In this document: piece after piece, positions 59,518 through 59,693 of the stretch
Position numbering within the stretch: the first letter of the stretch is position 1
Layout of the letters: every line of letters starts with the position of its first letter
From: Pyrenophora tritici-repentis
Taxonomy: Eukaryota > Ascomycota > Dothideomycetes > Pleosporales > Pleosporaceae
Assembly: GCF_003171515.1 (NCBI RefSeq)
Contig: NC_089398.1
Location: forward strand, 806,001-870,000
DNA: 64,000 nucleotides
Direction of reading: 5' to 3'
The notes under the pieces: model-generated
The model's input: only the letters and a program-made list of their open reading frames with translations
Told to the model about the DNA's origin: nothing
Databases searched by the model: none
Program-made: the position numbers and the translations under genes

Positions 59518-59657
59518 GGCACCATGGCCTAATGGTAAGGCGTTGCTTTCCGGTTTTCGGTATATGGCAAAGATTGTGGGTACGTATCTTCAATCACCTC
59601 TTTATGATCTGGACATTGTGCTAATATCAGTATCAGGTTCGAGTCCCACTGGTGTCG
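59518..59657 (+). tRNA. tRNA-Arg(CCG) with an anticodon-loop intron and a spliceosomal-type intron in the T arm
   Basis: All tRNA stems can be read once two insertions are removed. Acceptor GGCACCA (59518-59524) pairs with TGGTGTC (59650-59656) with one G-T pair; the discriminator is G59657. The D stem GCCT/AGGC is perfect. The anticodon stem TTGCT pairs with GGCAA (59566-59570), and the loop TTCCGG plus T65 gives anticodon CCG at 59550-59552. A canonical tRNA intron, about 59554-59564, follows position 37, and its CGG (59558-59560) can pair with the anticodon. A second insertion, 59580-59636, splits the T stem: it starts GTACGT, has GCTAAT at 59620-59625 and ends CAG. Excising exactly GT to AG joins GTGG to G and restores GTGGG/TTCGAGT/CCCAC and a 72-nt tRNA. 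A box (TGGCCTAATGG, 59525-59535) and B box (GGTTCGAGTCC, 59636-59646) are intact. Confidence 0.85.
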
Positions 59658-59661
59658 TTTC

Positions 59662-59693
59662 TTTTTGCCTTTCTTTTATGCTTCTGTTTTTTT
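59662..59693 (+). terminator. Pol III terminator T-runs after the tRNA gene
   Basis: T5 at 59662-59666 and T7 at 59687-59693 follow the discriminator base within 40 bp. Fungal Pol III normally stops at such runs. Within the gene the longest run is T4 in the small intron, which should not terminate efficiently. Confidence 0.65.

Follow-up and report, generated by a model that had tools for sequence, protein, structure and literature searches.

The window analysed here is a stretch of 64,000 nucleotides (nt) from Pyrenophora tritici-repentis, part of contig C9 in a genome of 40.9 Mb and 41 contigs, and the element under study is a tRNA-Arg(CCG) gene at positions 59518-59657. The original prediction described this gene as interrupted twice, by an 11-nt intron in the anticodon loop and by a 57-nt insert in the T stem, and the programs cmscan and ARAGORN both agreed with that description. 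The tRNA model (RF00005) was matched at these positions by Rfam cmscan with 37.5 bits (gathering score 29), and ARAGORN (introns allowed) called tRNA-Arg(ccg) with an 11-nt intron, i(36,11), once the T-arm insert had been removed. With the insert left in place ARAGORN (introns allowed) called nothing at this locus, and no tRNA was called anywhere in the window by ARAGORN without introns. The three exons sum to 72 nt (see Table 1 for coordinates).

Table 1. Features of the tRNA-Arg(CCG) gene, in positions of the window (Pol III, RNA polymerase III)
Feature	Position	Strand	Basis
Exon 1: acceptor 5' strand, D arm, anticodon 5' half to position 37, A box	59518..59553	+	cmscan; ARAGORN on spliced gene
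Conventional tRNA intron, 11 nt, after position 37; TTTT at 59554-59557	59554..59564	+	ARAGORN without T-arm insert
Exon 2: anticodon 3' half, variable loop, T-stem positions 49-52 (GTGG)	59565..59579	+	ARAGORN; excision test
GT-AG insert, 57 nt, between tRNA positions 52/53; 5' splice site GTACGT at 59580-59585	59580..59636	+	
GCTAAT resembling a branch site; its branch A (59624) lies 12 nt from the insert's 3' end	59620..59625	+	
Distal CAG, the 3' splice site restoring the tRNA; proximal CAG at 59628-59630 does not	59634..59636	+	excision test
B box GGTTCGAGTCC, assigned by the B-box consensus; its first G is the final base of the insert	59636..59646	+	sequence
Exon 3: T loop, T-stem 3' strand, acceptor 3' strand, discriminator	59637..59657	+	cmscan, ARAGORN, excision test
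T5 run, likely Pol III terminator	59662..59666	+	

It had been claimed that precise removal of the insert from GT to AG restores a 72-nt tRNA and that only the distal of two AGs yields it. Among 12 GT..AG excisions tried on the gene (30-109 nt), this was the sole one to restore the T stem and acceptor, and excision to the proximal AG failed to do so. The cut can slide by one base either way (GG/G), such that GT-AG is one of three equivalent cuts. The predicted signals GTACGT, GCTAAT and terminal CAG were all present, and shuffles of the insert placed all three correctly in 4 of 100,000 cases. The insert was also said to be as long as neighbouring introns of messenger RNA (mRNA), and its 57 nt compare with a median of 60 nt among 20 window introns that bridge open reading frames (ORFs; 21 found, the tRNA insert dropped).

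GT-AG inserts of 51-68 nt were found in the T arms of 14 tRNA genes on 8 contigs, 13 besides Arg-CCG; this number is a lower bound, the genome-wide patterns having covered the 52/53 and 54/55 sites. The insert lies at 52/53 in the Arg-CCG gene of the window, in Leu-UAA and in one of five Lys-CUU copies; at 54/55 in Leu-UAG, two Pro-UGG genes, two Leu-AAG genes and Gly-CCC; at 55/56 in all four Arg-ACG genes found; and at 57/58 in Gly-GCC. A DNA search with the Arg-CCG gene returned one other place, tRNA-Leu(UAA), with a T-arm insert at the identical site, while Lys-CUU was recovered as the third such gene by two genome patterns for the 52/53 site, the second of which required AG and a T loop and neither GT nor a branch site. 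The 54/55 pattern, which required GTNNGT and CTNAY, matched at seven places. Six of them were tRNA genes (two Pro-UGG, two Leu-AAG, Gly-CCC and, once more, Leu-UAG), and the seventh, C2:3256633 (GTCCGT), was rejected as having neither a tRNA body nor an Rfam match. A Leu A-box pattern gave three places, namely Leu-UAA, a complete Leu-UAG with the 54/55 insert and a truncated Leu-UAG fragment. An Arg pattern matched the gene of the window, the four Arg-ACG genes and an uninterrupted Thr-CGU. Gly-GCC starts twelve bases behind one of the Arg-ACG genes. The Lys-CUU family provides natural empty sites, since four of its five paralogues lack the insert and read GTGGGTTCGA uninterrupted; the interrupted copy is 87-97% identical to the other four over approximately 90 nt, and the last 22 nt are identical.

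Excision was then assessed across the set. For 13 genes, every GT..AG excision of 30-109 nt starting at least 40 nt into the gene was made, and a pass required a T stem of 5 bp with its loop together with no fewer than 6 of the 7 acceptor pairs. Unspliced, none of the 13 genes passed; from 412 excisions 13 restored a tRNA, one per gene, each bearing the splice signals. For Gly-GCC, 1 of 54 excisions restored the tRNA, and acceptor and T-stem pairing was intact in all 14 genes after excision. The GT-AG boundary was unique in the 54/55 and 55/56 genes. ARAGORN called 2 of the 14 unspliced genes, both wrongly built (Leu-UAA became a stop tRNA, and Lys-CUU was given a 92-nt intron), and called a tRNA in 14 of 14 with the T-arm insert removed. 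A whole-genome RF00005 search (63 matches) listed none of the 14 T-arm-interrupted genes and is therefore no census of tRNA genes; as a comparison, ARAGORN was run on 28 uninterrupted nuclear tRNA genes and called them, also not as a census.

Both Pro-UGG genes (L102, C2:1481800-1482080, and L103, C2:1489670-1489950; minus strand) have three introns each: besides a conventional intron that is left over, one GT-AG insert splits the anticodon and another the T arm. The anticodon insert (34/35) follows CCTGCTTT, measures 56 or 58 nt, starts GTAAG, contains CTAAC and ends TTATTAG, after which the gene reads GGG. Three Pro-AGG genes read CTTAGGG without an anticodon insert and with a conventional intron, and excision of the Pro-UGG insert would give the loop TTTGGG with anticodon UGG. 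ARAGORN called tRNAs from the doubly spliced Pro genes with other anticodons (Pro ggg; Ser tga), and for this reason the UGG assignment rests on the Pro-AGG comparison and the splice signals. No other Pro-UGG gene was found with a pattern allowing up to 3 mismatches.

The T-arm inserts of the 14 genes and the anticodon inserts of both Pro-UGG genes make up 16 inserts, in all of which GTANG[AT], CTAAY and AG were observed (YAG in 15 of 16), with the reservation that 5 of the 16 were found solely by a pattern demanding splice signals, the other 11 having been found without a GT or branch-site requirement. The branch A lies 10-13 nt from the insert end in 15 inserts and 18 nt from it in one. Shuffled inserts showed all signals in 0 to 4 cases per 100,000 (10 of the 16 inserts tested). 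The T-arm insert lengths sit within the range of the 20 window mRNA introns (47-100 nt), and the 5' splice-site scores of 15 scored inserts fall in the range of those introns.

These sequence data make it very probable that the insert at 59580-59636 is a spliceosomal (U2-type) intron, that the nuclear tRNA gene around it is transcribed by Pol III and that the genome has at least 13 more genes of this kind; the cutting is presumably done by the spliceosome. The spliceosomal-type reading, first made on one gene, has thus been extended to 14, with a unique excision in each, empty sites in Lys-CUU, conserved signals and no full bulge-helix-bulge (BHB) at any junction tested.

Several observations weigh against this conclusion. 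With only the T-arm insert removed, the ARAGORN anticodon equalled that reported here in 8 of 14 genes; the misses were both Pro genes, Gly-CCC (called tcc) and three Arg-ACG genes, and several isoacceptor assignments rest on our own reading of the anticodon loop. The Rfam gathering score was reached by 3 of 9 interrupted genes scanned (Arg-CCG, Leu-UAA and Leu-UAG), one Leu-AAG gene (Leu-AAG_a) fell just below it, and for the remaining 5 there was no match with an E value of 0.5 or lower. The 3' site of Gly-GCC is AAAAG, the branch site of one Pro-UGG gene (Pro_TGG_a) scored 5.5, below the mRNA-intron range (5.8), and the 3' sites of Arg-CCG, Leu-UAA and Leu_AAG_a equal the mRNA-intron minimum. 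The mRNA intron reference set is itself rough (reversed control 4 vs 21). Finally, the Arg-CCG gene comes near to a BHB at one slid cut, with central 3/4, outer 3/4 and inner 4/4 pairs.

The last point bears on the alternative that the T-arm inserts are non-canonical tRNA introns cut by the tRNA splicing endonuclease via a BHB, which we consider very unlikely. T-arm tRNA introns removed by the endonuclease are known elsewhere (PMC4090602; PMC, PubMed Central), and in Guillardia a defined BHB is missing from many of the ectopic introns (PMC3978253), so that absence of the motif is not final. When junctions were slid wherever the product was unchanged and a motif of two 3-nt bulges and a 4-bp helix was sought, none of 15 junctions had all 4 central pairs: the best value, 3/4, was seen in Arg-CCG, Leu-UAA, Lys-CUU and one Pro anticodon insert, and the Arg-ACG genes had 0/4. 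Nor does a BHB explain the presence of GTANG[AT], CTAAY and AG in 16 of 16 inserts, or their sole retention in the Arg-ACG introns. A conventional tRNA intron (37/38) was rejected for the T-arm inserts on position, these lying at 52/53, 54/55, 55/56 and 57/58.

It is equally improbable, in our estimation, that the interrupted genes are dead or the inserts retained, with intact genes supplying the tRNAs. Lys-CUU, with its four uninterrupted copies, would fit such a state of affairs, one Leu-UAG relative is a truncated fragment and the genome searches were non-exhaustive. Against this, the searches, within their limits, revealed no uninterrupted gene for Arg-CCG, Arg-ACG, Leu-UAA, Leu-UAG or Pro-UGG; these were the isoacceptors for which copies were sought, and not Leu-AAG, Gly-CCC or Gly-GCC. 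The existence of other CCG-reading tRNA genes had been named as a check in the original prediction, and none was found with a pattern running from A box to anticodon (up to 3 mismatches), nor was any uninterrupted Arg-ACG copy, Arg-ACG matching at the 3-mismatch limit of its pattern. The Leu A-box pattern gave no uninterrupted Leu-UAA or Leu-UAG; DNA searches with Arg-CCG and Leu-UAA add little, the latter having also missed the related Leu-UAG. In nine ORFs of the window as they stand (6626 codons), CGT, CGC and CGA together occur 242 times, CGG 48 times and TTA 28 times. By the usual decoding rules TTA needs Leu-UAA, while CGT and CGC need Arg-ACG, and because these codons are in use the Leu-UAA and Arg-ACG tRNAs must be matured somehow. 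Some of the interrupted tRNA genes are almost certainly needed by the cell, and the mRNA-splicing machinery may, to judge from these sequences, be needed to make tRNA.

The intact acceptor and T-stem pairing in 14 of 14 genes also speaks against decay, as does the history of the Arg-ACG genes. The exons of all four are identical apart from the conventional intron, while their T-arm introns have diverged and share little but GTAAGT, TTCGA, ACTAA(C) and AG, a pattern that looks like long use and not decay. The Arg-CCG and Leu-UAA inserts are similar beyond the fixed signals (0 of 2000 shuffles as alike), Arg-CCG and Lys-CUU show a weak likeness (69 of 2000) and the remaining four of the six pairs compared show none; some introns may have passed between tRNA genes. 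The shared 5' end of the inserts occurred at 16 genome places vs 10 for the reversed pattern, and Rfam scans of 14 other loci with this 5' end found a tRNA in one (L040), approximately 1.1 kb from the match. No high-copy family of inserts was seen by DNA search, shared-5'-end pattern and pairwise comparison, genome-wide intron clustering not being among the methods used.

A chance resemblance or assembly artefact is the least credible explanation: although reversed patterns also gave matches (2 vs 7 for the 54/55 pattern, 3 vs 4 for one 52/53 pattern and 3 vs 3 for the Leu A-box pattern), the 14 genes lie on 8 contigs with differing insert sequences and were accepted by tRNA body and not by pattern, and a scan of 349,613 bases for GT-AG-restored T arms with acceptor and A box found 8 inserts, all in known genes, with none in the identical scan of the reversed sequence.

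The effect of the inserts on the Pol III promoter differs by site. The claim that the B box is kept by way of the last G of the insert holds for Arg-CCG and is particular to the three 52/53 genes, in which that G replaces G52 and leaves the B box whole. Inserts at 54/55 and 55/56 damage the exonic B box. The motif TTCGA was observed in 7 of 10 tested inserts at these two sites vs 0.45 in signal-fixed shuffles (0 of 5000 shuffles reached 7), or in 7 of 11 B-box-splitting inserts if Gly-GCC, which has none, is included, the genes in these counts not being independent. By isoacceptor, TTCGA is present in Arg-ACG, Pro-UGG and Gly-CCC and absent from Leu-UAG, Leu-AAG and Gly-GCC; it was found in 1 of 20 mRNA introns and in 0 of 3 inserts at 52/53, the Arg-CCG insert having TTCAA. 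On this evidence the B box has presumably moved into the intron in several genes. It had further been stated that no T run would stop Pol III, which is correct for the 57-nt insert (longest run 3) and overlooked the TTTT of the anticodon-loop intron. TTTT occurred in 0 of 16 inserts vs 3 of 20 mRNA introns, and trailers carried T4 or longer in 13 of 13 genes tested and T5 or longer in 12 of 13.

Taking the inserts as spliceosomal introns, maturation of tRNA-Arg(CCG) would begin with a Pol III pre-tRNA containing both introns, from which the spliceosome would excise the GT-AG intron, thereby creating the T arm, and the tRNA splicing endonuclease and ligase would excise the anticodon-loop intron. 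RNase P and tRNase Z need a folded elbow and would probably act after the spliceosome; we infer this order of steps. In the 52/53 genes the last G of the intron would rebuild the B box, and in several of the 54/55 and 55/56 genes an intronic TTCGA probably replaces the damaged exonic B box, a promoter role which we likewise infer. More broadly, we think it likely, again from sequence, that the spliceosome is obligatory for much of the tRNA set, that the B box is intronic and discarded in several genes and that the Pro(UGG) anticodon exists only after U34 and G35 have been joined.

A number of further observations were made at or near these loci. The Arg-ACG and Gly-GCC genes at C4:2537050-2537400 (L115, L118, L124) are 12 nt apart, with just TTTT in between; each has a T-arm GT-AG insert, and the two may be transcribed as a single RNA. 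In the Leu-AAG pair (L104, L106; C8, C9) the trailers have approximately 45 bases in common, including a possible small hairpin as well as CCCAGGTTC before the T run. The truncated Leu-UAG 5' half (C1:1869000-1869420, minus strand; L101) is followed by unrelated sequence. The second 52/53 pattern returned 71 rows (control 6), mostly one repeat, whose extracted copies were covered by the scan of 349,613 bases; this repeat ends in the B-box-like AGGTTCGATTCCCAACA, is present in many copies, often in steps of approximately 5.5 kb (C10:2352100, 2357600, 2363100; C1:5482035, 5487535), and perhaps represents the long terminal repeat ends of a retrotransposon. Three single pattern hits (L057, L068, L081), inspected by eye only, were not accepted as tRNAs, and another (L050) had no Rfam match. 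The mirrored tRNA matches (e.g. 4639/58122 and 5474/57286) on contig C41 (183 kb), probably mitochondrial, point to an inverted duplication or to a fold-back in the assembly. Two scans of viral contigs returned 0 matches. The proteins of the window look fungal, and the neighbour of the tRNA gene encodes trimethyllysine dioxygenase (best named match in Pyrenophora teres, 79% identity).

No paper on spliceosomal introns in nuclear tRNA genes was among the open PMC matches listed, a set that leaves out preprints and most subscription papers. We consider such inserts a new class of tRNA intron, although the machine that would remove them is itself old. The introns of tRNA and mRNA have so far been treated as two separate splicing worlds. 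If the present reading is true, tRNA supply makes translation in this fungus directly dependent on the spliceosome, tRNA genes can acquire spliceosomal introns and keep them, an element of a Pol III promoter can shift to an intronic position, and needed tRNA genes can escape tRNA finders; these genes would then provide a natural test of the hand-over of Pol III transcripts to the spliceosome and of intron spread among non-coding genes. The program tRNAscan-SE 2.0 is described as modelling non-canonical introns for archaea (PMC8450103).

Among known systems, conventional eukaryotic tRNA introns after position 37 occur in the same genes (e.g. 59554-59564), but they lie at another place and need no GT-AG or branch site. 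The introner-like elements of Dothideomycetes, reportedly described by van der Burgt in 2012, are similar in being new spliceosomal introns that spread in related fungi, and differ in that no high-copy family was seen for the tRNA inserts. In archaea, Cyanidioschyzon and nucleomorphs, T-arm tRNA introns are recorded (PMC4090602), with T-arm-cut genes that often carry a second intron (PMC4090602 and PMC3978253); those introns are removed by the endonuclease, whereas the inserts described here lack the BHB pairing and have the splice signals of mRNA introns. Spliceosomal introns have been reported in ascomycete 18S ribosomal RNA genes (PMC11889510, citing Cubero 2000 and Bhattacharya 2000); there, too, introns of the mRNA type interrupt a non-coding RNA that is the product of a polymerase other than Pol II, although this is ribosomal RNA and not tRNA, with no internal promoter at stake. 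A further likeness is to fungal U6 small nuclear RNA and U3 small nucleolar RNA: the fission yeast U6 intron is spliced (PMC10484740), and spliceosomal introns are widespread in U3 genes of Pezizomycotina; according to PMC5832005, no small structured RNAs other than U3 and U6 are known to be interrupted frequently. In the present genome two U6 loci read as uninterrupted. A separate 66-nt match spanning the U6 model (53.3 bits; C2:1204566-1204631, minus strand) lies near a full U6 gene on the opposite strand at C2:1204189 and is perhaps a deleted U6 copy. Like the genes described here, the U6 and U3 genes specify small structured RNAs, are described as transcribed by Pol III and hold introns of the mRNA type; unlike them, the genes of this study encode tRNAs, are split in the T arm or anticodon, contain a conventional intron as well and in some cases seemingly carry the B box within the intron.
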